64,000 nt of DNA, from contig JAWZYU010000019.1 of the NCBI GenBank assembly GCA_038380435.1, positions 23,523,801-23,587,800 of the forward strand. The letters run 5' to 3'. The stretch is from Ryuthela nishihirai (taxonomy: Eukaryota > Arthropoda > Arachnida > Araneae > Heptathelidae). Position numbers and translations under genes: made by a program. A model generated the notes under the pieces. The model searched no databases. It was given only the letters and a program-made list of their open reading frames with translations, and was not told the DNA's origin. Positions 6,420 through 57,943 of the stretch are shown piece by piece (position 1 is the stretch's first letter; each line of letters starts with the position of its first letter).

Positions 6420-8325
6420 TTTAAAGTCCTTAAGTTAAAATAAAAGCGACTCTATACCAGATGGAATTGAATCAACACGAAATTCATAACTGGAAGAACA
6501 TTTATCGGTTATGGCGAATATCTGATGCTCGTTTAAAAAGAGAATAATGTTTTTCATTTTCCTAATTTTACGCCCTTTAAAAGCGGTAATTCGAAGAATT
6601 AGATTGGGTAAAAAGCGAATAGCTTTTTATTTATTTATTAATTAGTATTTATAAAACATTAAAAAAAATTGGTCATTTTGCCTTTAAAATGAAAAATCTA
6701 CCTTTATCCACTATATTTACTGGGAACATACCTACTGAACTATAAACAGGTATTTTAAGACCTATTTTTAAAGGTGGTATTAAGGAGGATTTTTCTAACT
6801 ATCGACCAATAACAATTCTGCCTATTTTTTCGAAAATAATGGAAAAATATATTTATAGTACTGTCTTTAACTTTTTACTTAAACACAACAAAATTAATGA
6901 AAATCAATTTAGCTTTCAAAAAGGGAAAAACACAAATCAACTAATTTCCAAAATTGCAAATAATATTAATAAATCATTGAATAATAGAGAAAAAATTGTA
7001 ACTATGTTCTTAGATTTAAAGAAAGCCTTCGATACAATAGATCATAGCATTTTACTAAATAAATTGGAAAATTACGGTATTCGCGGTATATTGTTAGATT
7101 GGTTTAGAAATTATTTATCAGACAGATACACAATTACTAAAATAAAAAACTGTCACAGCAAAAAAAGTAGTAAGTAATTACACGATATGGAATTCCCCAA
7201 GGCTCAATTTTAGGTCCTTTATTGTTCCTAGTATACATAAATGATTTTTTCAATACAAAATTAAATAGTGCTATTTATATATATGCTGACGACATTGTTT
7301 TAATAAACAGTCAGAAATATTTAAATGATAGCATTTCAGAGGTTCAAACAGATTACAATAATATTATTAGATGGTTGAATCATAATAAAATCTATTTAAA
7401 TGAGAAAAAAACAAAATTGATGATTATTCATTCACCAGGATTTCATATTCATCAAAACCTCTTTATCAAAACTCATAAAATAAATTGCAGAAAAAAGGAT
7501 GCTTCAAATTATGAATCATTATGTAGTTGCCCACTTGTTGAGCAAGTAAATAAAATAAATTACGTATGAATCATTTTTGATGAATATTTTAGGTGGAATG
7601 CCCATATATCCCACATATGTGAAAGCTTGAGAATATCGGCGATAAAAATTCAAAAATTGAAATACGTATTAAATATGGAAACCTGTGTAATATTTTATAA
7701 AGCAATATGCGAATCTATTTTAAATTATGGAATAATTGTGCATGGAACAACTAACTTAACTAACATAAATAAAATAGAAAAACTGCAGTCTATAATAGCT
7801 AAAAATATTATTCCGTTTCATTTGCAAAAAATTTATAAAACTTCCACCGATAGATTAAAATTTTTAAAACTTTTATCCTACAGCAATTTTTATAAATATA
7901 ATGTAATAATTAAAAATTTTTTGACGATACTTACAAACTAAAAATTCAACATAACAAAAATACAAGACTTCAAAACCAAAGGTTATTACAAATTGCCAAA
8001 TTTTCGAAATAATTACGGGAAACAACCTCCGAATATCAAGACCACTTATATTTAATGCTATTCCAAAAGAATTACTAAATATAGATTGTTTTAGAAAACT
8101 TAAAATGGAATTAAAAAATTATTTGGTATTTTCTAGTTAGCTGATTATTATGTGTTGTGTTTTGTGGATTTATTTGATGTACACCATTGATGTGGCTGAA
8201 TGATCTATGTTTAATATAATTTATTCATTTTCCTGCAGATGAGCTATTTAGCTTTGCGGGTCAAATTGTAAATGTATTTGTATTCTTTACTCTTATGAAT
8301 AAAAATTATATTCTTTAAAAAAAAA
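6420..8325 (+). pseudogene. Jockey/CR1-like LINE, reverse transcriptase pseudogene with poly(A) tail
   Basis: Non-LTR retrotransposon ORF2 remnant. Weak finger-domain peptide SDSIPDGIEST is near 6448. Good similarity starts at 6752 with LRPIFKGG and SNYRPITILPIFSKIMEK, then DLKKAFDTIDHSILLNKLE near 7014 (first catalytic aspartate), PQGSILGPLLFLVYINDF near 7195 and the catalytic YADDIVLIN box near 7282. The thumb/C-terminal part (YKAICESILNYGI, then QSIIAKNIIP) runs to 7941, and a weak NAIPKELL tail lies near 8056. Frameshifts near 7170 and 7565 and in-frame stops kill it. The 3' UTR ends AATAAAAATTATATTC plus a poly(A) run near 8318, typical of a Jockey-like LINE. Confidence 0.85.
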
Positions 8326-16407: not shown

Positions 16408-16786
16408 GGGCGGGGATGGCTCAGTCGGTAGCGCGCCAGGCTCGTAATCTGTAGTTCCCAGGTTCGAGTCCCATCTGGGTCAACGTTGAGATTTATCTCC
16501 GCAAAATTCCCTGCCCACGGTCAGTAGGGGACACCGATGGGCTTGGAAAGGCCGCCGTCCATCGGATGGGACGTTAAGCCGTGGCCCCGTGTGCGGGAGA
16601 GCCATGCCCTTAACACGTTAAAGAACACTCTGGATGGCCTTGACGGGAGGCTACCATCTGCCTCCCAACAGCTGTTCAAGTGGGTCCCCTCCCCCAACCT
16701 TCTCTGAGCCTTCGGGGTCCATGTGACCTGGCCATTTAGCCCATGGTGTGCAAAAAAGTGCTGCTCAGAGGTAAAACAACCCAACC
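16408..16786 (+). mobile_element. SINE-A, full length, in satellite
   Basis: Complete head GGGGCGGGGATGGCTCAGTC with both boxes, body and AACAACCCAACC tail. Flanks CTTTTGAATCTG (16396-16407) and CTTTTGAACCTG (16787-16798) look like the target duplication, with the caveat that the host satellite itself repeats this motif. Confidence 0.93.
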
Positions 16787-17040
16787 CTTTTGAACCTGCT
16801 CCGTCAAGTACACTGAATCTCTTTGGTCTCCTTTTCATCCCTCTGGTCGAATGCGATAAACCTTTTAGTCTTTTATGAATCGATTTGGTAGAGCACACTA
16901 AATCGTTTTGGTCTCTTTTGACTCTGACTGGGCGAACACACTGAATCTTTTTTCAATACTTTTTGTAGAGCACATTGTATCGTTTGTATCTGTTTTCATT
17001 GGGATTGTTCAAGTATAATGAATCATTTTGGTTTATTTTA

Positions 17041-19683: not shown

Positions 19684-19758
19684 TCTTCTGCACACGGGGG
19701 CCAACATTATGAAAACCAGTTTCTTTTCACTGTTTCTGCACTGGTGTTTGCCTTATTA

Positions 19759-20165
19759 CATGGCGTGGGCAAGGCGGGGGTGGCTCAGTCGGTAGCGCGC
19801 CAGGCTCGTAATCTGTAGTTCCCAGGTTCGATTCCCAGCTGGGTCAGCGTTGAGATTTATCTCCGCAAAATTTCCCGCCTTGCCCACGGTCAGTAGGGGA
19901 CACCGATGGGCTTGGAAAGGCTGCCGTCCGTCGGATGGGACGTTAAGCCGTGTCCCCGTGTGTGAGAGCCATACCCTGTGCACGTTAAAGAACACGCTGG
20001 ATGGCCTTGACGGGAGGCTACCATCTGTCTCCCAACAGCTATTCCAGTGGGTCCCCTCACCCAACCTTCTCTGAGCCCTCGGGGTCCATGTGACCTGGTC
20101 ATTTAGCCCATGGTGTGCAAAAAAGTGACCCTCAGAGGTAAAACAACAACAACAACAACAACAAA
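19759..20165 (+). mobile_element. SINE-A, full length, (AAC)n tail
   Basis: Both promoter boxes are intact. The tail has become (ACA)n instead of the ACCCA type. Target duplication GCCTTATTA lies at 19750-19758 and 20166-20174, so about 14 extra bases (CATGGCGTGGGCAA) at the 5' end belong to the inserted unit, perhaps co-transcribed flank. Confidence 0.92.
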
Positions 20166-20370
20166 GCCTTATTATAGTCTCGCTATATATCACTTTTACA
20201 CATCGGTATCAGGTTTAGAGGGAAAATTCTCTGGTCCAGGTGGGATAGGAACCAGAGATCTGACATGTCATGAAGAGATCGTGGATTCATATCCCAAACA
20301 GCTCAAGATAATTTTTCCTCTAAATTTAGTAGCTATGTATAAAGTGATTTCATGAACGCTCCACTGAATT

Positions 20371-22810: not shown

Positions 22811-23378
22811 GGGGCGGGGGTGGCTCAGTCGGTAGCGCGCCAGGCTCGTAATCTGTAGTTCCCAGGTTCGAGTCCCAGCTGGGTCAGCGTTGAGATTTAT
22901 CTCCGCAAAATTCTCCGCCCTGCCCACGGTCAGTAGGGGACACCGATGGGCTTGGAAAGGCCGCCGTCCGTCGGATGGGACGTTAAGCCGTGGTCCCGTG
23001 TGTGGGAGAGCCATATGCTGTGCACGTTAAAGAACACGCTGGATGGCCTTGACGGGAGGCTACCATCTGTCTCCCAACAGCTCTTCCAGTGGGTCCCCTC
23101 CCCCAACCTTCTCTGAGCCTTCGGGGTCCATGTGACCTGGCCATTTAGCCCATGGTGCAAAAAAGTGCCGCGGTCCCGTGTGTGGGAGAGCCATATCCTG
23201 TGCACGTTAAAGAACACGCTGGATGGCCTTGACGGGAGGCTACCATCTGTCTCCCAACAGCTCTTCCAGTGGGTCCCCTCCCCCAACCTTCTCTGAGCCT
23301 TCGGGGTCCATGTGACCTGGCCATTTAGCCCATGGTGTGCAAAAAAGTGCCGCTCAGAGGTAAAACAATCCAACCCAA
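22811..23378 (+). mobile_element. SINE-A with internal tandem duplication
   Basis: Intact head and both boxes. The 3' half from GGTCCCGTGTGTGGGAG to the AAAAAAGTGCCG block occurs twice in tandem (about 22993-23170 and 23171-23349) with very few differences; one is CATATGCTG against CATATCCTG. Target duplication CCTGCGGGAGT is at 22800-22810 and 23379-23389. The near-identity suggests the duplication is recent. Confidence 0.93.
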
Positions 23379-24115
23379 CCTGCGGGAGTAAAGTAGGATT
23401 ATTCCCCTACTGATGCGCAAGTTTTGACATGTTTAGGCCTTGCACCGCTACTCGTTACAACAACGGCTCTCGATTATGCTCTGTGAGACGTTTCCACGGG
23501 CAGTTTAGCCGCTCCAATGGACGATCAGAGAGTGAACATTAAGTTTTGTGTTCGAAAACGAAAACAATGTTGTTTGTTTTCTTTCGACTGCAGAGGTAAA
23601 GTGTACAAGGAATTTGTTCCACAGGGTCAAATGTCGCTGTGCTGACATTCAGGCCATTCAGACAGCTCCGCAACATTTCAGAAAGTGCTTCGAGGACTGC
23701 TTCAAAGACTTCCAGAAACACTGGAATCGGTGTACTGATGCAGGAGAAAACTATTTCAAAGGAGATCCTTAGCATCAGAGTGTAAGTACACTGTACTCCA
23801 TGTGTATACCGTCAGTCTCGGAACTTTCCAGATATAGATTCTACATATATGTATATAATATCTCCTGAATTTCCAAGCATTCTTGCAGACCTACGTTTCC
23901 TACGTTTACAAGTTCCATCTCTTGCGTTTTTCAAGTATTCATGCCATTCACAGATTCCATCTTTTGCGTTTTTCAAGTATTCATGCCATTCTCAGATTCC
24001 ATCTCTTGTCTTTTCAACTGTTCATGTGATCCCCATCTCCCAAGTTTTGAAGTGTTCATTTAATCCCCATCTTCTGAGATTTCAAGAATTCATGAGAAGC
24101 CTATCCCCGCCCTAT

Positions 24116-40458: not shown

Positions 40459-40999
40459 TGTTACGACAGATGAACGAGCAACAGTGACTTCATGACTTAA
40501 CGTGACTTGAACCCTCGTGTGTGCTTCTACGTGAGATTCAATTTAGCCAACGAATTGGAACTTAGAACGATTCAGAAGAATAAAAAAGATAGCAGTGCAG
40601 TGTGTTAAAGTTGTGAGATCTGAAAGGACGTTCAGATGATCTGATTCAGTGCGCGTTAAGTGAAAATAATTAATATATTTATTAGTGTGTGCGCGGGTGT
40701 TTGTTTCCTGTTGTTAGTAATAAAAGTTTAGTGAATTAGCACAGGACGAGAGTTTGTTTACGTGTGAAGGTATTCAAGTGACATGGTAAACAAAGTGAAG
40801 AGGTAGTATTTTAGTAGAACAGAGAGAGCTGATATTGTATGCTCTGTACAAAAAGGTTAATGACTTATGTATGATAGTAGTTAATTTGTTTATAAAATAC
40901 TTCATCCATATTTTTCTAACATTTTGCAATGGTAATTGGTTTGAAAATATAGTTATTAATGCTCACGCTCAGTGCCTATCCATTTTAAAATTCGCAACA
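40459..40999 (+). repeat. solo LTR related to the 47-51 kb retroelement
   Basis: Starts TGTTACGACAG and ends TTCGCAACA, the same termini as the complete element. It is 541 bp against 643 bp, with a diverged 5' half and closer 3' half (GACGAGAGTTTGTTTACG, AATACTTCATCCATATTT, CTCACGCTCAGTG). ATAT flanks both sides (40455-40458, 41000-41003). A solo LTR with duplication implies a former full element lost by LTR recombination. Confidence 0.9.
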
Positions 41000-41785: not shown

Positions 41786-42045
41786 TTTCTAAAGTGCCTT
41801 GAAACATGAACATGGATGTGTATATTCTGTAAAAAAAGGTTAATGACTTATGTATGATAGTAGTTAATTTGTTTATAAAATACTTCATCCATATTTATGT
41901 AACAATTTGCAATGTATTGTAATTGGTTTGAAAATATGTTTTCAAGGTTCATGTTTCAAGGCACTTTAGAACATGGATGTGTTTCTAAAATGCCTTGAAA
42001 CATGAACATGGATCTAAAGTGCCTTGAAACATGGATAAATGGATA
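41786..42045. repeat. repeated and inverted AAAGTGCCTTGAAACATG block
   Basis: Direct copies near 41790, 41975 and 42018 and an inverted copy near 41952 surround the LTR fragment. The inverted pair could form a hairpin with the LTR fragment as loop. Confidence 0.75.
41829..41945 (+). repeat. LTR 3' fragment
   Basis: GTTAATGACTTATGTATGATAG through AATACTTCATCCATATTTATG to TTGGTTTGAAAATATG matches the 3' half of the solo LTR at 40459 more closely than the 47-kb LTRs. It lies inside the hAT 5' region and stops short of the LTR end. Confidence 0.8.
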
Positions 42046-42419: not shown

Positions 42420-43940
42420 GAAGAAAATGAAAGTGCACTTAAAGCGTCTTACAAAGTAAGCTTTCAAATTGCCAAAGCCTGAAAAGGCACACAATAGGCG
42501 AGTCACTTATTCTTCCAGCAGCTGAAGAAATAGCTTCTTGTAAGTCTTGTAGCATCTTGTCAGAACTATTCCTTTGTCAAACGACACAGTTTCCAGGAGA
42601 ATTAAAGATATGGCCTGCAATATTAAGGACCAACTCATTCAAGTTATTCAGTGTAGCCCGTGGTTTGCCATACAAGTGGATGAGTCGACAGACGTAGCTG
42701 GTCTGCTCAATTACTTGATTTTGTGCGTGGAAAATTCCAGGATGCAATAATTGAAGATATTTTATTTTGTAAGCCTCTCAAAACTTCTACTACTGGTGAG
42801 GATTTTTTTAATAAGATTGAGTCATTTTTTGCCGAAAACAACCTTGAATGGAAATATTGTATTTCTGTATGTACTGACGGAGCAAAAGCAATGAGTGGTT
42901 ATATCACAGGACTAGCAGGTCGTATAAAACAAGTTGCACCAGAATTAAGTTCACTCATTGTTATCTTCACCGTGAAGCGCTGATAGCTACATTTCTCCCT
43001 AATGATTTGAAAAGAGTTCTGGATCAAAGTGTACAAATGGTGAATTTCATCAAAACCCGACCATTTGAAGTCTCGACTTTTTTCAATTATGTGTGAAGAA
43101 ATGGGTAGTCTGCATAAGAGATTGCTGTTTCACACAGAAGTGCGTTGGTTGTCACGAGGAAACGTTCTTTGCCATTTATTTGAACTCCACAATGAAGTAC
43201 ATCTTTTTTACATGGACCACGAGTTTCGACTTTCTTTGAGACTACAAGACTTGGACTGGCTTTTACGGTTAGCATATTTGGCTGATATTTTTGAAAATAT
43301 GAATATTTTGAACTTATCATTGCAAGGAGACAATGCTGATGTGTTCTATGTTGAGAAGAAAACAGAGGTCATGATAAAAAAAAATTCTCTCTGGGAAAAC
43401 GGAATTAAAAAGAACAGCTGTGACGAATTTCAGCGATTAGATTCATTTCCTAAAGAAAATGAGCAAATGATTGCAGACTTTGAAGACATCAGACAACAAA
43501 TAATCGTTCACTTAAGCAGTCTTAAAACTCTTATAAGGCAGTATTTTCCACGCCCTGATGAAACGCAAGAATGGATTCGAGACCCCTTCACATTTTATTT
43601 GGAAAAATGTAAGCTTCCACTGTCCGATAAAGAAGAGTTGATTGAGATATCTTGTGACAATAGTTTAAAAAGCATTCATTCCAAAAAGCCATTGATTAGT
43701 TTTTGGATTGGAGAAGGAATGCCCGACTTTGTCAAGAATTGCAGTCAAATATATGTCACCTTTCACAACAACTTATTTATATGAAACTGGTTTTTCACCT
43801 TTAACTGCTTTAAAAATAAATATAGGAACAGGCTGGATGTTGAAGATGACTTGCGACTCTACCTTAACAAGATAACCCCAACCATTGATGAACAGTGCAA
43901 GCGTAAACAAGAGCAAATATTTCACTGTTTACCCAGTGAA
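42420..43940 (+). pseudogene. hAT transposase pseudogene (ZBED5/SCAND3-like)
   Basis: Reads in at least four frames. The front part carries ASYKVSFQIAKA and, near 42665, FAIQVDESTDVAGL, the DEST box with the first catalytic aspartate. The 42723-42983 frame continues KTSTTGEDFFNKIESFF and CISVCTDGAKAMSG, the second catalytic region. The 43065-43784 frame (239 codons) has [19 protein letters not shown], a hallmark of this group, and runs through the helical insertion domain. A shifted tail near 43825-43900 gives RLDVEDDLRLYLNKITPTID, the C-terminal dimerisation region. The N-terminal BED zinc finger is not recognisable. Frameshifts and stops make it dead, though the longest frame is well preserved. 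Confidence 0.9.
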
Positions 43941-44419: not shown

Positions 44420-45465
44420 GGACGTAACCAGATTTCAAAGGGACCAGGAGCAAGCTGAGTAAAAGGGCCCCCTCCCTCTATTCACGTAGAAGGCAACTCA
44501 TCAACTCCTTGTATTATAAATGGTAGATTTAAATATATCGTAAAATACGTAAAAATGAAATGTAATCGTCAAATCAATAAATATTGGAAATGAGTAGAGC
44601 TCAATATTTTCGAGCCCGAACTATTTCAACAATTGTTGAGTCCGAACTGTTTCGATGATTGTTGAGTCCGATTTTGAGGAAAAATTATCTGATGCACGGT
44701 AAGATTTGGTTGTTTGGTTGTTTTACCTATGAGCGGCACTTTTTTGCTCACCATGGGCTAAATGGCCAGGTCACATGAACCCCGAAGGCTCAGAGAAGGT
44801 TGGGGGAGGGGACCCACTGGAACAACTGTTGGGAGACAGATGGTAGCCTCCCGTCAAGGCCATCCAGCGTGTCCTTTAACGTGTTCAGGGTATATCTCTC
44901 CCGTACACAGCTTAATGTCCCATCCGACGGACGGCGGCCTTTCCAAGCCCATCGGTGTCCTCTACTGACCGTGGGCAGGGCGGCGAATTTTACGGAGATA
45001 AATTTCAACGCTGACCCAGCTGCGACTCGAACCTGGGAACTGCAGATTACGAGCCTGGCGCGCTACCGACTGACCACCCCGCCCCACGATAAGACCTATA
45101 TACAGAAATGCATGTCGTTAATCGCTTGTTTTATTATGTTATTCAATATAATCATTTCATGGCAAAATTAAAACGTTAGTGATATTTGGAGCGAAAAATG
45201 CGAGAAATGCAAGTAGAAACCGAAAGTTCGTGGGTAGCATCATTACGAATGCTTAGAGCCATTCATTTATTAAAGACAGAGAATACGTCAAAAATAATCA
45301 AAAGACGCATGGAGTTTATTTACTAAAGAGTGATTAAAAGACTGAAACTGTAATCAAAAATATTTTATATATTAGTTTCCTTTTCAGAACAAGAAATATT
45401 TGAAATTTAAGTTATTCTGAACCGGAGCCTGGAGTTGCCTGTACTATTTTGAAGCCCACAAAGTT
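44420..45465. repeat. dispersed repeat, copy 1 (contains SINE-A)
   Basis: Outside the SINE this matches 54420-54870: GAGGAAAAATTATCTGATGCA, TACAGAAATGCATGTCGTTAA, AGAGCCATTCATTTATTAAAG and the AAGAAATATTTGAAAT segment, in the same order. The family is unknown. Confidence 0.75.
44705..45084 (-). mobile_element. SINE-A, full length, with paralogous empty site
   Basis: Complete reverse copy; a small deletion near 44908 removes part of the CACGGGGCCACGG block. Duplication CACGGTAAGA (44695-44704) and CACGATAAGA (45085-45094). The related repeat at 54420 has the same flanks without a SINE near 54515-54535. Confidence 0.95.
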
Positions 45466-47093: not shown

Positions 47094-47097
47094 ATAT

Positions 47098-47740
47098 TGT
47101 TACGACAGAAGGAATCTGGCAACCGAAAGCAAAAAGTTTCAGCCAACGAATAAGAACGTTGGGAGAATTTGGAGAAGAAGAGTGGAGCGTTAACGGTCAT
47201 TTTTGTATTGTAACGGTCGTTGTGTTGTAACGGTCGGAGAGTTCGAAAATGGACGGTGAGCTGTTCTGAGACAGTGCGCGTAAGTATCAAGAAGTAACTT
47301 GATGTGTTGTGTATACGCGGAAGGATAAAAGTGGGATCTTTTATCGTTAAGTATCAAGAAGTAACTTGATGTGTTGTGTATACACGGAAGTATAAAAGTG
47401 GGAACTTTTATGGCTAACTTCGAATGTCTACACGGACTGTCTTTTTGTTCGGCTAGTGTGTGAACAGTTATTAGCACAGGACGAGAATTGGTTTACGAGT
47501 GAAGATCTTCGGGTGACCTGGTAAATCAAGTAAAAGGTAGTATTTAGTAAAATACACAGAGCTGATATTGTGTGCTCTACGCAGGAAGATTGATGACTTG
47601 TGCATGTTAATAGTTGATTTGTTAATAAGATACTTCATCCATATTTCCTTTGTAACAATTTACCTTGTATTGAATTTGGTTTTGAAATATAGCTTTTAAT
47701 ACTCACGCTCAGTGGCTATCCATTTTTGTAATCCGCAACA
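47098..47740 (+). repeat. 5' LTR, 643 bp
   Basis: Compared by eye with the 3' LTR (offset 3665), one difference was found: C at 47557 against T at 51222. The U3 region holds a 67-bp tandem duplication (47282-47348 and 47349-47415). Confidence 0.95.
47282..47415 (+). promoter_or_regulatory. duplicated LTR promoter segment with TATA boxes
   Basis: Two 67-bp units start AAGTATCAAGAAGTAACTTG. The second carries TATAAAAG at 47391-47398, the first the weaker GATAAAAG at 47324-47331. Transcription would be expected to start roughly 30 bp beyond the second box. The same arrangement occurs in the 3' LTR (TATA at 51056-51063). Confidence 0.7.
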
Positions 47741-47742
47741 TT

Positions 47743-47759
47743 TGGTGTCAGAGGTGGGG
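47743..47759 (+). other. primer-binding site
   Basis: TGGTGTCAGAGGTGGGG begins two bases after the LTR. Its complement ends TGACACCA, i.e. a tRNA 3' end with CCA. This type is common in Gypsy elements and often assigned to a leucine tRNA; the exact tRNA is not settled here. Confidence 0.85.
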
Positions 47760-47771
47760 TTAATTAATTGA

Positions 47772-50700
47772 ATGCCGTTAACTAGAAGTATGGATGAATT
47801 AGTAAAGTTGATAAATAGCTTCAAAGCCGATATGACTACGCTGATGACTGATATGAAAGCCGATATGGCTACACAGATGAATGACATTAAAAGTCAAAAT
47901 AATGACTTGAAAGCCGATATGGCTAACAAAATAGGTGACCTTGCCGCACAAAAAACTGAGATTAAAGGTGATATAGCCGCCCAAAGCGATAAAATAGGTG
48001 ACTTGAAAGCCGAAATGGCCGCACGAAATAATGAGTTGAGGAATAAAAGAGGTGATCTGGCCGCACAAAATACTGAGATTAAACGTGATATAGCTGCCCA
48101 AAGCGATAAAATAGGTGATTTGAAAGCCGAAATGGCCGCACAAAATAATGAGTTGAGAACGGAGATAGTTTCTCAAAAAGATGATTTGAAAGCCGAAATA
48201 GCCGCACAAAATACTGAGATGAGAGCTGAAGTGGCTTCTCGAGTTGGTAAGATTATTGATCACTTCAAGGATCATAAAACCGAACTCAATAGACAATGCA
48301 ATAGTTTAAATGTTGAATTTGTCAGTGAAAAAGATGATCTTGATAGTGTTAAGTTAGATTGTAAACATGGAAAAGAGAAAGGCAACGCATATAAAAATGT
48401 GGATCTGCTACTGGAAATCAAGAATTGTAGAGATAGCACAGATAATGCCTTTGACCACGCAACTACTGGTAATGCACGGCAGAGTGTCTATGTCGCTGGT
48501 GACATGTCTAGGAACTGTGAAGAACAATCACACAGATTAGAGAGCTGTGAGACTAAACAGTACGCTTTGCACTTCAAAATACCTAGGTATACAAGTCTGG
48601 CACGATCTGAAGAGAGATCCACACGAAAGGTATTCTATTCCTCGCCGTCAGCAAAATGTGTCATGGACATTTATCGCAAAGGCAGAGTAACGAGTGGTAA
48701 TGAGGGGGAACGAAACAGAGTTTACGTTTCGCAGAGTGGTCCGAGTAAAGAAGAGGCGTCCATTCATCATAGATACAAAGTGCCCTTCGTCGTTACCGGG
48801 GAAGTCGGAGAGATTTTTCCGAAGCATATAGCCACACTTGAATCGTTTATAGAAAGTGGGGATTTAAGGAAGAGGAATTCCGAAGGATGGCTTAGAAGCA
48901 TAACAGGTGATGCTAGTAAAAGAGCTTCAGGCAGAGACAGTACTTCAAAGACTAACTTTCTGGATGAAACTAAGCCTCAGAGTTACGATCAGAGAGAAGT
49001 AAAGCCCTCAGACAATCTCAACGAAACCATGCTGAATTTCTTTTCTGAACAGTCAATGTGCAGATTTGGACATTATAACCATTTAGATTATAAGGATATA
49101 GAAAAGTTTTATCACGACTACAAGAGCTCTAAAGTGGACAATATCATGTTACAGAACTCGTCGCTGATCTCCAGAATGAACAATTTGGCAATCATGACTG
49201 ATATTTCCCTGGCTAATTACAATGAGAGCTCCAAGAAAGTGAATTCGGAAGAAACAGCAAATATGACCTCCTCGGGTCATGTGTTTTGCTGGAGACCTGA
49301 GTGGCGCCATCGGATGGTGGATAAACACAGCACAGGAGGTGTCAGCGACAAAGTGAGTCTTGTCTTGGCTCCTGCACTTGCTGCTTTAGGTCTCAAGGTC
49401 CCTATGATCTCCGGTCGTGCTCTCCAATTGACGGGAGATACTCTGGACAAATTGGAATCCATCCCTGGCTTCACAGTCGACTGCACTAAAGATAAAATCG
49501 AGCAGATGATGGAAGACGTCGGATGCTGCATCGTAGGACAGACAGAGGAGCTGGTGCCAACAGATAAGGAGATTTACCGCTGCAAGGATCTGACGGCTAC
49601 CGTAGATAGCGTTCCTCTAAGGAGATGCTCAATTGTGTCCAAAAAGCTGGCTGAAGGAGTGTGTGCTTTGGTTCATGATGTTGAATTCGGAAAAGGAGCT
49701 ATTGATCTCATCAGTACAGAAGATGTTGCTGTTGATTTAGTTAAGAAAGTGGTTGCAGCATCACAAGCTCGTGGAATGAAGAGTTTGAGTTGTTCAGCTG
49801 TTATCAGCAACATGGATTCACCTCTTGAAAACTCTGTTGACAACTCTCTGGAAGTGATGGAAGCTGTTCAGTGTTTCCTTGGTAACGGATCCTTAGAACT
49901 GCAAGAGCTCGTCGAAGAGTTAGGAGAACTTCTGCGTTTTGTGAACATTGTGGATAATAGGGTAGATGAAGCATCACGTGTCCGTAAGGTTCTGCATAAC
50001 GGCAATGCTTTGAACAAGTTTCGTAACATGTTAATAGAACAAGGAGTATCTGAAGATGTTGCAAGCTGGCTATGTGAAGGTAAAACAGAAAAAATATTGC
50101 TAGCAGCCCGACACATCACTGATTTCACTTATACAGGAGAAACAGGTAAGGTTGTCGGATTAGAAGCTGCAATTCTAGCAAGAGTATGGAAGGAGGAGAT
50201 GGACCGAAGAGCTAAAAAGAATTATGGAGTTGATATTATATTTGTGAAGCACCTTGGGGATCAAATGGAATCAGGTGAAATATGGCTGAAGGTTCATCAC
50301 GACAGTTCTGAATTAAGTGAAAGTCAACTGACAAAAGGGTCAGACTGGAGAATGAAACTCCTCCCTAGATTTTATGTCACTAATGACTTTCATTCCTTGT
50401 TACTGTTGATAGAAGTAAAAATCCAAAGAAGAAAACTTTCGACAAAGAAGAAAACTTTTTACAGGTTTTGCACGAAAACTCTTAGTCGATTCTTCTCCCT
50501 GCGGAGACATAAACGTGTTCACAAGGGCTATAGGCCTTACACGTATTATATTTGTGGACGAGGCTTCAGTCAGAAAAGAAATCTAAGTCATAATGAGATT
50601 CGCTTTCATTTTGACACAGACGTGGAATATCGCATTCGTCGACGTCCAGCTACAAAGAGCAAGGTGGTTCACGTGGATCGTTTGGCCCCGTTTCATCGAA

Positions 50701-50858
50701 GAACTGAAGAAACTTTGGAATCCAGAATTGTTCGGGACGAACAAGACCTAGGGAGGGGGCAGTGTTACGACAGAAGGAATCTGGCAACCGAAAGCAAAAA
50801 GTTTCAGCCAACGAATAAGAACGTTGGGAGAATTTGGAGAAGAAGAGTGGAGCGTTAA
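47772..50858 (+). CDS. chimeric ORF: coiled coil + thymidine phosphorylase + zinc-finger remnant + integrase tail
   Basis: A single open frame of 1028 codons; the first ATG lies 12 bp after the primer-binding site. Residues 1-170 form a charged heptad-type coiled coil with a 39-residue internal repeat (DNA 47934-48050 and 48051-48167), replacing a normal Gag. Residues 170-497 are charged and unrecognised. Residues 498-855 (49263-50336) are thymidine phosphorylase, colinear with the animal TYMP family: VDKHSTGG phosphate loop (K518), KVPMISGR, TLDKLESIPGF, TATVDS, SKKLAEG, LNKFRNMLIEQGV. The family's N-terminal helical part is missing. Conserved residues are changed: GLGHTGGT has become ALQLTGDT (550-557), the uracil-binding R is K605, and the K of DVKFG is E638. 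S620 and K624 remain. Near residues 895-945 lies a degenerate C2H2 zinc-finger stretch (SLRRHKRVHKGYRP, CGRGFSQKRNL) with a lost cysteine. RIRRRPATKSKVVHVDRLAPF-type Gypsy integrase C-terminus follows near 950-970. The last 31 residues are encoded in the 3' LTR. Expression and activity are unknown; catalytic function looks doubtful. Confidence 0.9.
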   Translation: MPLTRSMDELVKLINSFKADMTTLMTDMKADMATQMNDIKSQNNDLKADMANKIGDLAAQKTEIKGDIAAQSDKIGDLKAEMAARNNELRNKRGDLAAQNTEIKRDIAAQSDKIGDLKAEMAAQNNELRTEIVSQKDDLKAEIAAQNTEMRAEVASRVGKIIDHFKDHKTELNRQCNSLNVEFVSEKDDLDSVKLDCKHGKEKGNAYKNVDLLLEIKNCRDSTDNAFDHATTGNARQSVYVAGDMSRNCEEQSHRLESCETKQYALHFKIPRYTSLARSEERSTRKVFYSSPSAKCVMDIYRKGRVTSGNEGERNRVYVSQSGPSKEEASIHHRYKVPFVVTGEVGEIFPKHIATLESFIESGDLRKRNSEGWLRSITGDASKRASGRDSTSKTNFLDETKPQSYDQREVKPSDNLNETMLNFFSEQSMCRFGHYNHLDYKDIEKFYHDYKSSKVDNIMLQNSSLISRMNNLAIMTDISLANYNESSKKVNSEETANMTSSGHVFCWRPEWRHRMVDKHSTGGVSDKVSLVLAPALAALGLKVPMISGRALQLTGDTLDKLESIPGFTVDCTKDKIEQMMEDVGCCIVGQTEELVPTDKEIYRCKDLTATVDSVPLRRCSIVSKKLAEGVCALVHDVEFGKGAIDLISTEDVAVDLVKKVVAASQARGMKSLSCSAVISNMDSPLENSVDNSLEVMEAVQCFLGNGSLELQELVEELGELLRFVNIVDNRVDEASRVRKVLHNGNALNKFRNMLIEQGVSEDVASWLCEGKTEKILLAARHITDFTYTGETGKVVGLEAAILARVWKEEMDRRAKKNYGVDIIFVKHLGDQMESGEIWLKVHHDSSELSESQLTKGSDWRMKLLPRFYVTNDFHSLLLLIEVKIQRRKLSTKKKTFYRFCTKTLSRFFSLRRHKRVHKGYRPYTYYICGRGFSQKRNLSHNEIRFHFDTDVEYRIRRRPATKSKVVHVDRLAPFHRRTEETLESRIVRDEQDLGRGQCYDRRNLATESKKFQPTNKNVGRIWRRRVER
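50750..50762 (+). other. polypurine tract
   Basis: AGGGAGGGGGCAG directly precedes the 3' LTR (only the C interrupts the purines), as needed for plus-strand DNA priming. It lies within the open frame. Confidence 0.85.
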
Positions 50859-51405
50859 CGGTCATTTTTGTATTGTAACGGTCGTTGTGTTGTAACGGTC
50901 GGAGAGTTCGAAAATGGACGGTGAGCTGTTCTGAGACAGTGCGCGTAAGTATCAAGAAGTAACTTGATGTGTTGTGTATACGCGGAAGGATAAAAGTGGG
51001 ATCTTTTATCGTTAAGTATCAAGAAGTAACTTGATGTGTTGTGTATACACGGAAGTATAAAAGTGGGAACTTTTATGGCTAACTTCGAATGTCTACACGG
51101 ACTGTCTTTTTGTTCGGCTAGTGTGTGAACAGTTATTAGCACAGGACGAGAATTGGTTTACGAGTGAAGATCTTCGGGTGACCTGGTAAATCAAGTAAAA
51201 GGTAGTATTTAGTAAAATACATAGAGCTGATATTGTGTGCTCTACGCAGGAAGATTGATGACTTGTGCATGTTAATAGTTGATTTGTTAATAAGATACTT
51301 CATCCATATTTCCTTTGTAACAATTTACCTTGTATTGAATTTGGTTTTGAAATATAGCTTTTAATACTCACGCTCAGTGGCTATCCATTTTTGTAATCCG
51401 CAACA
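50763..51405 (+). repeat. 3' LTR, 643 bp
   Basis: Same length and ends as the 5' LTR; T at 51222 is the single difference noticed. The ORF runs into it and stops at 50858. Followed by ATAT (51406-51409). Confidence 0.95.
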
Positions 51406-51409
51406 ATAT

Positions 51410-51860
51410 ATTAAATAAATCATTTATTTGCTCATTTTTATACTGTTCAAAACAGATATGCGCCTTTGATATTCATTTTCTTCCTTGATGTCTAGGTTTG
51501 ATTATACAAAAATATGGTAAGCCTGTATATACATATATACACAGACAGAAATATTTGCTTTAAAAAATATAGAATTACCTGAACTCAATGATTCGGAAAC
51601 ATCAAGTACCGGAACAGTGTTCTGTTCCAAATTCTTATTCGGAAAAGCCAAAGAACGCGGTTCCGGTTCAATGATTGAAAACCTAAGCAACATAACGGAG
51701 TTTCGTTTAATGATTTAGAAACCTAAGTAACATAAAGGAGTTCCGGTTAAATGATTTGGGATCATAGGAATCGGAATAATAGCATTCCGGTTCAATGATT
51801 TGGAAACATAATTACCGGAAAGGCGTTCCGATTGAATTTGGGCAATGCTTTGAAAATTCC
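51410..51860. other. short degenerate repeats, no gene
   Basis: The phrase TTCCGGTTCAATGATT recurs with variation near 51662, 51742 and 51788, and AACATAAYGGAGTT near 51690 and 51730: a degenerate repeat of about 40-60 bp. Confidence 0.5.
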
Positions 51861-52613
51861 TTCCCCTATTCAAAAAGTCACGCTTCGCCACTGTACAATA
51901 CCTTATACACATTTCTTATTAAGCATAGCATTCTCAGTGAAAATCAATATGGGTTCGAAAAAAAGAAAAGTGCCATGGACATACTAACGAAATTTACTGA
52001 TTTAGTCTACATGGCACTAAATGGAAGTGACAGGGCAGTTTCAGTGTTTCTAGATATAGAGAAAGTCTTTCATACTTTGGATCATGACTTTTTTTTTACG
52101 GAAATTATAAACTATGGAATTAGAAGCATTGTATTACACTTGTTTCAAAGGTATTTATCAAATTGATTTACAGTAACTAAAATTAACACCTATAACGGGA
52201 AGTTTCAAGTTAAATATGGTGTTCTTCAAGGATCTATTTTAGGCCCACTTTCATTTTTGATTCACATAAACGACTTAACAAAATTAAAATTAAATAGTAC
52301 CATGTTTCTATATGCCGATGATATAGTTTTAGTTAATATCAAGAAATCTGAAGAAGATGCAGTTAAACATGTGCAAAAAAGGATACCATTCCTGAGCTAA
52401 AAAACTGTAATTGCATCAAAATTGGCAGAGTATATAAAATAAAATATGTAGGATTACATCTCAACATTACCCCGGATGGAAAGTTCCTATTGGTTCACAT
52501 TAAGGCTTTGAAGTTAAATAAACTACGATGTATAATGGATACCAACACTTGTGTTATGTTTTATAAAGCAATCTGCGACTCCGTCTTAAATTGTGCCATA
52601 ACGATACATGGTA

Positions 52614-52827
52614 CAGTCGCTCAAAAAAGTATCCGAACACTATGGTTGATTACAAAATTCAGAAAAAATATCTGGCAACGATTTTTTTAGAAAATAGTGA
52701 TCTGGCAACCTTCGTGTCACGTGTCACGAAGGTTGCCAGATCACTATTTTCTAAAAAAATCGTTGCCAGATATTTTTTCTGAATTTTGTAATCAACCATA
52801 GCGTTCGGATACTTTTTTGAGCGACTG
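52614..52827. mobile_element. MITE-T, 214 bp, inside the LINE
   Basis: Perfect-looking ends CAGTCGCTC and GAGCGACTG with TA at 52612-52613 and 52828-52829. The arms pair almost base for base around GTCACGTGTCACG. LINE peptide continues across the gap when the MITE and one TA are removed. Confidence 0.95.
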
Positions 52828-53465
52828 TACAACCAACTCACCAAATATTAGAAAAATAGAATGTATTTAATCTTCAATTGCTAAAAATATTATACCAATT
52901 AAAGACCGTATACACCTAAGATAGATTAGATTACCCAAGATAGATTTATTTACTTGAATATTACCTTACCAGAGCCTACTAAATAAACATAGTTTTACAT
53001 AATTTTTTTGACAACACACATAAAATTAAAGTCCAAATGACAAAAATTCAAGATTTAAAAAGAAATATTTTCAGCTACGAATTTTACAAATAACTATGGA
53101 AAGTGTAAAAGTAGTTGCAAAATTCCATACATTTCCAATCTCTTACCAAGGGAACTGCTAGCCGTAAGTTCTTTTATAGAATTAAAACTCGAATTAAATA
53201 GATATTTTTAAAATAAATTAGAAAATTCGTATTAACACCTACAAGCAAATTATGTAGTGCGAATGTGAATGTAAAAATTCCAATGTTATTATAAAATATT
53301 CGACATGAAAAAAAGGTAAAAATTTTAGTAAAGAGAGAAAATTATTTAAAGTTGAAATGTTCGACTGAAATAGTAAAGTGGTATATAATTATTGCAACGT
53401 GATGTAAATGAATTAAGATTAGCAGATTAAGTCAGAAAGAAGGTTTAATATTTAACTTTTATAAT

Positions 53466-56943: not shown

Positions 56944-57603
56944 CGGGTTGGGTTGGGTTGTTTTACCTCTGAGCGGGGGGGCGGGGGTGGCTCAGTCGGT
57001 AGCGCGCCAGGCTCGTATTCTGTAGTTCCCAGGTTCGAGTCCCAGCTGGGTCAGCGTTGAGATTTATCCCCGCAAAATTCCCCGCCCTACCCACGGTCAG
57101 TAGGGGACACCGATGGGATTGGAAAGACCGCCGTCCGTCGGATGGGACGTTAAGCCGTGGCCCCGTGTGCGGGAGAGCCATACCCTGTGCACGTTAAAGA
57201 ACACGCTGGATGGCCTTGACGGGAGGCTACCATCTGTCTCCCAGCAGCTGTTCCAGTGGGTCCCCTCCCCCAACCTTCTCTGAGCCTTCGGGGTCCATGT
57301 GACCTGGCCATTTAGCCCATGGTGTGCAAAAAAGTGCCGCTCAGAGGAAAAACAACAACAACCAACCTCTGAGCGGCACTTTTTTGCACACCATGGGCTA
57401 AACGGACAGGTCACAAGGACCCCGAAGGCTCAGAGAAGGTTGGGGGAGGGGACCCACTGGAACAGCTGTTGGGAGACAGATGGTAGCCTCCCGTCAAGGC
57501 CATCCAGCGTGTTCTTTAACGTGCACAGGTTATGTCTCTCCCGCACACGGAGCCACGGCTTAACGTCCCATCCGACGGACGGCGGCCTTTCCAAGCCCAT
57601 CGG
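56944..57603 (-). mobile_element. SINE-A, 5'-truncated outer copy of a SINE-in-SINE nest
   Basis: Tail GGGTTGGGTTGGGTTG at the left, body resuming at 57377 and ending at CCAAGCCCATCGG (head lost). Exact duplication TGCAGTTACTT at 56933-56943 and 57604-57614. A second SINE-A interrupts it after only 33 bp. Confidence 0.95.
56977..57364 (+). mobile_element. SINE-A, full length, inner copy
   Basis: Complete, both boxes intact, tail GGAAAAACAACAACAACC. Exact duplication ACCTCTGAGCGG (56965-56976, 57365-57376), taken from the outer SINE's own 3' region. The pair lies head to tail in inverted orientation and could fold into a long hairpin if transcribed. Confidence 0.95.
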
Positions 57604-57614
57604 TGCAGTTACTT

Positions 57615-57943
57615 TGGCAACTTGGGAAAGTTATCAATGGATATGTACGTTTTACGATAAACTTTACGCGGGAAACGTTATCGATGGAGAGGCAAGCAGG
57701 CGAAAAACTTTCGGCGGAAAAAGTTATCGATATAGAAAGGGATAAGTTACACGCCAAATTTTGGCGGTATACCAAATTTTAGCCATAAGCTAGTATTAAA
57801 ATCACACCCAAAAGAAATGAACAAAAGTCTGTTAAAGGTGAAGCAAAACAGACCTAAAAATTAATAAAAAATTACAATAGTAGATGAGTGCAAAAGGGTG
57901 CGTTTTTCTTCAGTTTCCCTTGATGCTGCATCACTGGAGGAAA
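57615..57943. other. no recognised feature
   Basis: AT-rich spacer between the SINE nest and the pogo-like element. Confidence 0.4.

Follow-up and report, generated by a model that had tools for sequence, protein, structure and literature searches.

The spider Ryuthela nishihirai carries, in a stretch of contig JAWZYU010000019.1, a 4308-bp LTR element at positions 47098-51405 of the window (the whole 64,000-nucleotide stretch of DNA that was analysed). Its single open reading frame resembles thymidine phosphorylase (TYMP) over about 360 residues. The locus raises the question of whether an LTR retrotransposon has captured a host enzyme gene and, if so, what has become of it. We consider it very probable that the element is a young, high-copy, non-autonomous Ty3/Gypsy derivative of a longer Gypsy element still present in the genome, carrying a dead TYMP sequence and mobilised in trans.

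Structure of the element and surrounding DNA

The hallmarks of an LTR retrotransposon were found: paired LTRs with TG...CA ends, a primer-binding site (PBS) and a polypurine tract (PPT). The original prediction of near-identical LTRs with PBS and PPT in place was borne out by the following features, to which the target-site duplication (TSD) is added.

47094-47097, no strand: left copy of the TSD, ATAT, flanking the element
47098-47740, + strand: 5′ LTR, 643 bp, identical to the 3′ LTR at 642 of 643 positions
47743-47759, + strand: PBS-like sequence TGGTGTCAGAGGTGGGG, beginning 2 nt past the 5′ LTR, read directly
47772-50858, + strand: single open frame of 1028 aa, with its stop within the 3′ LTR
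50750-50762, + strand: polypurine tract AGGGAGGGGGCAG, abutting the start of the 3′ LTR, read directly
50763-51405, + strand: 3′ LTR, 643 bp, with a single mismatch to the 5′ LTR
51406-51409, no strand: right copy of the TSD, ATAT, flanking the element

The PBS is presumably of the tRNA-Leu type. The TSD can be read as ATAT or ATATAT on both flanks. The 1028-aa frame is unlikely to have arisen by chance, because the longest open stretch in 200 order-2 Markov sequences of equal make-up did not exceed 175 codons.

Several other features were seen in the window. A repeat of about 67 nt lies inside the 5′ LTR (47281-47417) and at the corresponding position of the 3′ LTR, and its copy number seems variable among copies of the element. 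Old remnants of a related LTR were found at 40735-40999 (79% against the element LTR) and 41836-41937 (81%). Positions 52611-52830 form a palindrome with 110-nt arms, 98% complementary and without a spacer. An interspersed repeat with a recurring translation, possibly SINE- or MITE-like, occurs at 16521-16952, 19756-20208, 22930-23406, 44779-45171, 57097-57429 and 57284-57745. By eye, fragments resembling LINE reverse transcriptase were seen at 6746-7941 and 51795-52166, and a 239-aa frame at 43065-43784 has the look of a hAT-type transposase derivative. Rfam gave zero matches in the window at gathering scores.

The thymidine phosphorylase piece

The 1028-aa frame is composed of several segments, given here with their relation to the likely parent element described below.

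47772-48290, + strand: gag N-terminal coiled coil with tandem repeats (aa 1-173, end approximate), common to the likely parent
48291-49241, + strand: segment (aa 174-490) with no similarity to the parent gag stretch read
49254-50327, + strand: thymidine phosphorylase piece (aa 495-852), approximately human residues 92-451
50451-50609, + strand: degenerate C2H2 zinc-finger piece (aa 894-946), from PDB matches
50619-50690, + strand: integrase p58 C-terminal remnant (aa 950-973), PF22938

The resemblance to TYMP, proposed earlier from the letters alone, was confirmed by protein searches: aa 495-852 matched human TYMP (PDB 2j0f) at E 1.7e-75 and Pfam PF00591 at E 5.9e-32. The predicted layout, about 360 TYMP residues in one unbroken frame without introns, also held. 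The piece is colinear with TYMP and lacks about the first 90 human residues and the C-terminal end; the N-terminal domain, PF02885, was unmatched in the 1028-aa frame at E ≤1. Identity to 14 aligned proteins was 44-49% over about 360 residues. The predicted fold of the piece (pLDDT 84.5) had human TYMP as its best PDB match (TM 0.90 by query length), although a kept fold is to be expected from a model that was built with TYMP relatives. The piece is thus like animal TYMP in its colinear residues and predicted core fold, and differs from it in the missing ends and in the replacement of conserved catalytic-site residues.

In a tree of 26 rows, the TYMP piece fell in a 12-row branch with horseshoe crabs, spiders and five further records (support 99/99). 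Its end branch was 1.1 changes per site, a length matched only by Gryllus in the same tree. This branch and the identity of about 50% to the best database relatives point to a divergence from sequenced relatives that is not in itself recent.

Comparison with an intron-containing host TYMP locus, as suggested in the original prediction, could be made on one side only: the element piece has no introns, but no separate host TYMP gene was located by three N-terminal queries and a core query, from which exon splitting or introns could hide such a gene. The N-terminus of P0002, a record that groups with the spiders in the TYMP tree, gave 21 weak genome matches (best E 2.5), and all 10 that were opened were element copies. 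The Limulus TYMP N-terminus gave one genome match, at E 7.7. The core query from P0002 gave nothing above 68 bits. PF02885 gave two adjoining hits among 9 candidates in this genome and matched 14 of 14 control genomes. Instead of capture in the present host, an origin of the element or of its cargo in a different animal is possible.

Two candidates were rejected. The lone PF02885 match was not a host TYMP gene but a bacterial-looking trpD stretch. The weak genome matches to the TYMP N-terminus query had also suggested that a divergent TYMP N-terminus might directly precede aa 501; the scores of that stretch against eight TYMP N-termini did not exceed the 95% level of shuffles. The locus of the PF02885 match (L052, G000:C16:11097933-11098119 and surroundings) holds bacterial-looking trpD-/trpC-like frames in a main contig, the gene names being judged by eye apart from PF02885, and could reflect contamination or transfer.

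Copies across the genome

The TYMP piece is not confined to the window. In the animal's own 3.11-Gb genome it had 40 scored matches among 2001 candidates, full length and at 99-100% among the matches listed. The segment at aa 174-490 likewise had 40 scored matches among 2149 candidates, all full length among those listed, and 9 of 9 loci opened through this segment (besides the window) carry TYMP. The TYMP core query, a piece of P0002, gave 150 scored matches among 2215 candidates. All four places opened among these 150 were element copies, and the others were alike in score and mostly in frame. Frames at the 150 places were at least 800 aa long in 115 and at least 900 aa in 93, with a median of 941. 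Unscored candidates were not counted as copies.

In total, 44 copies were opened, including that in the window; the 43 others came from four genome searches (20 + 10 + 9 + 4). The ends were examined in the window copy and in 20 copies fetched whole. A 4-bp TSD was present in 18 of the 19 copies with resolved ends, L027 being the copy without one; the ends of L023 and L025 could not be assigned, and those of L029 were resolved on re-inspection. The LTR pairs of 18 copies showed 19 mismatches in total, between 0 and 5 per pair of about 640 bp, with none in 8 pairs; four pairs also had gaps of 1 to 17 positions. The near-identity of the LTR pairs indicates a recent spread. The N-terminal repeat part varied from 83 to 173 aa among copies. 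L041 and L042 are more distant copies, missing some 80 nt in the region of the integrase remnant; the middle of L042 is also decayed.

These results supply the copy count that the original prediction had proposed as a check: the same insert was found in 43 further copies at separate places. That the fusion is an assembly chimera or a single accident is hardly conceivable. Nothing was found in favour of this explanation, and it is already refuted by the 43 separate copies, the TSDs and the 150 scored places.

A likely parent element and apparent sequence exchange

In the 1028-aa frame, no Pfam match at E ≤1 was obtained for protease, reverse transcriptase (RT), RNase H or the integrase core. 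The element is therefore regarded as non-autonomous, the integrase C-terminal remnant being the sole gag-pol enzyme part that Pfam matched. This remnant scored 25.3 bits against PF22938 in the whole frame and 27.1 bits in the tail alone (cut-off 27). The zinc-finger piece had PDB matches from E 6e-12, while Pfam zinc-finger models stayed under cut-off; by eye, one finger shows a change from Cys to Tyr. Both features were absent from the earlier reading of the sequence.

For aa 174-490, no relative was found at E ≤10 among 1066 candidates (proteins of about 376-1195 aa covered), and Pfam gave sub-cut-off matches only (E 0.015 and 0.036). This segment also had no significant match to the parent gag piece (L070). 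In a search with the whole frame, none of the 74 proteins with E ≤0.001 among 7994 scored candidates had the same fusion, judging from the listing and four inspected sequences (P0042, P0123, P0125 and P0185).

PF22938 had 150 scored matches among 5509 candidates in the genome and matched none of 14 control genomes. The frames at these matches ranged from 63 to 1910 aa, with about 40 of at least 1200 aa (hand count). Starting at window position 50619, one element with a 1725-aa frame was 97.7% identical to the TYMP element across the integrase remnant and PPT and into the LTR for 426 bp. The parent data comprise 1,152 bases of this one element, 601 of them at its 3′ end, where the LTR was compared. 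Its frame shares the start Met-Pro-x-Thr-Arg-Ser-Met-Asp-Glu-Leu with the frame of the TYMP element, and the repeats that follow in the two were 93-96% identical in the four best DNA matches. A 271-base internal stretch of the parent, which we take to read like Gypsy gag capsid, had no significant match in the TYMP element. Both ends are common to the likely parent and the gag stretch is absent; therefore, the middle of the element has been replaced, with the right junction at window position 50618/50619. Within this middle, the TYMP piece is captured host sequence, and the zinc finger is likely to be. Judged by these sequence matches, the 1725-aa-frame Gypsy-like element is the likely parent and helper, and would provide protease, RT, RNase H and integrase activity.

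A readable start was available in 38 of the 39 copies given, and in 3 of them the first residues are those of the parent. For example, the first 66 nt of L043 were identical to the parent at 66 of 66 positions and the first 59 nt of L046 were fully identical to it, against 83% for the window copy in each case. This observation suggests template switching or recombination between the TYMP element and the parent; the two seem to exchange sequence, as L043 begins its frame with parental sequence. Shared ancestry is a possible explanation of the parental 5′ end in L043 and L046.

Activity of the captured enzyme

The original prediction had raised the idea that the protein alters nucleotide pools around reverse transcription. 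We compared residues of the TYMP piece across the 44 copies. At aa 605, which we take to be the Arg of the TYMP substrate site, Arg was replaced by Lys in 44 of 44. At aa 556, Gly was replaced by Asp in 42 and by Tyr in 2. The His of the DKHSTGG motif (aa 519) was kept in 23 copies and lost in 21, to Asn in 20 and Tyr in 1. The copies with Asn at 519 had LTR pairs with 0-3 mismatches, so they must have transposed lately. At aa 522, 31 copies had Gly, 12 Arg and 1 Val.

Relative to the window copy, the TYMP piece of the 43 other copies had 124 distinct variants, 30 synonymous and 94 nonsynonymous. The nonsynonymous share of 0.758 was close to the 0.747 expected (pN/pS 1.06); by batch, the first 20 copies gave a pN/pS of 1.28 and the next 10 one of 0.70. 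The TYMP residues are drifting neutrally.

It is thus very improbable that the element encodes a functional thymidine phosphorylase with an effect on nucleotide pools in reverse transcription. The retained predicted fold would suit it, as would the 89 of 102 conserved positions that the piece keeps, although the 13 departures compare with 1-10 of 99-104 in the other 14 proteins. Against it stand the missing N-terminal domain, the replacement of key residues, including aa 605 and aa 556 in every copy and the His of aa 519 in 21 of 44 young copies, and the neutral pN/pS. Taken together, these make an active phosphorylase unlikely, and the proposed effect on nucleotide pools found no backing.

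State of the open frame

The 282 distinct variants included a single stop, where 11.6 would be expected (P ~1e-4); they were counted in 43 copies for TYMP and in 30 for the aa 174-490 segment and the tail. When L041 and L042 were left out (28 copies), the distinct indels, in-frame versus frame-changing, were 4 versus 0 in aa 174-490, 2 versus 0 in TYMP and 0 versus 5 in the tail. This pattern, 6 in-frame indels upstream versus 5 frame-changing indels in the tail, has a probability of 1 in 462 (hand calculation). With L041 and L042 included, the numbers became 10 versus 8, 3 versus 1 and 0 versus 6, respectively; the odd indels of L041 look like an alignment-edge artefact, since its frame is open, and L042 was set aside as decayed. 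In the aa 174-490 segment pN/pS was 0.81 (P 0.31), and in the tail it was 0.53 (P 0.047). Among the 9 copies selected through the neighbouring segment, L059 shows a shifted frame and a stop codon within TYMP; the start codon was altered in 1 of 37 copies.

The chances are about even that the captured sequence is a pure passenger, its frame open merely from recent capture and spread, with only the LTRs, PBS and PPT being needed. The neutral changes in TYMP, the nearly identical LTR pairs, the broken TYMP frame of L059, the length variation of the N-terminal repeat part and the changed start codon can all be explained in this way. It is harder to accommodate that stops and frame-changing indels are so rare upstream of the tail, or that TYMP is so distant from its best database relatives, with a long end branch. 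A passenger role had been offered in the original prediction as well; it suits the TYMP residues, although the frame appears to be maintained.

As a refinement of our main interpretation, selection might act on the open frame and not on its residues: translation that ends close to the 3′ LTR would spare the genomic RNA from nonsense-mediated decay or be required by the gag-like N-terminus. This explanation, which we hold to be possible but somewhat doubtful, would account for the scarce stops, for upstream indels that are all in-frame and tail indels that are all frame-changing, for the neutrality of the TYMP changes and for the long frames (at least 800 aa) at 115 of the 150 scored places. 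However, the copies are young and were picked by similarity, 14 of the 43 by a protein search, which favours open frames. The variants of kin copies are not independent, and the indel tally spans the first 30 copies, with the last 13 outside it. The TYMP frame is broken in L059, the upstream frame is broken in L042, and one of 37 copies is without the start codon. It is rather unlikely that the captured enzyme gene serves the element purely as an open reading frame while the donor gene has been lost from the host, with the element as the sole TYMP carrier in the genome.

Proposed mechanism and comparison with known systems

A trans-mobilised derivative of the Gypsy element most probably arose and spread as follows. 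Spliced TYMP mRNA, together with zinc-finger sequence, would have been captured by template switching between co-packaged RNAs in reverse transcription. In plant LTR elements, reverse transcription has been described to switch between packaged RNAs that are unrelated to each other (PMC13317346). From its structure, the element would be transcribed from its own LTR, packaged and copied in trans by parent proteins, and integrated by them with a 4-bp duplication. On this reading the fused protein is not an active phosphorylase; its TYMP residues are neutral, and its frame appears, on present numbers, to be kept open.

Maize Bs1 lacks its own pol and is of low copy number. It is an LTR element with pieces of a membrane ATPase, a xylan endohydrolase and a glucanase in a chimeric gene (PMC13317346); it resembles the TYMP element in carrying host gene pieces. 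The original comparison of this element with Bs1, as a Gypsy-type LTR element with a captured intron-less TYMP, agrees with the ends shared with the parent, the TYMP match and the loss of pol. With an intron-less host gene piece between LTRs and pol lost, the element fits the description of an animal counterpart of Bs1 on the features examined. It differs from Bs1, a plant element with other cargo, in its 44 copies opened and 150 matches scored, in the position of its cargo between a gag N-terminus and an integrase C-terminus, and in having a likely Gypsy parent in the genome.

In large retrotransposon derivatives (LARDs), other DNA takes the place of much of the coding region between the LTRs, and the elements are mobilised in trans (PMC6431247). 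The TYMP element is similar in having other DNA between the LTRs in place of much of the coding region, but many of its copies keep one long frame that joins the cargo to the gag and integrase ends of the parent. Two crocodilian endogenous retroviruses, CrocERV29 (KIT-ligand) and CrocERV31 (nectin3), carry captured host mRNA, and purifying selection on captured frames in crocodilian ERVs is reported (PMC4299795). These are also animal LTR retroelements with host mRNA capture, but they are endogenous retroviruses, with purifying selection reported for their captured frames, whereas the TYMP residues are neutral. A literature search by titles and abstract openings, in which subscription journals and preprints were scarcely covered, found no nucleoside phosphorylase in an LTR element.

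Implications

Gene capture by LTR elements has mostly been described as occasional events. In the genome of R. nishihirai, a coding sequence has been captured and then multiplied to many places, with a likely parent alongside and signs of exchange between the two. Many natural copies are thereby available on which to measure how such sequences are captured, how they are mobilised in trans and what becomes of the captured frame. These copies can also be used to test if a mobile element requires an open frame whatever its content.
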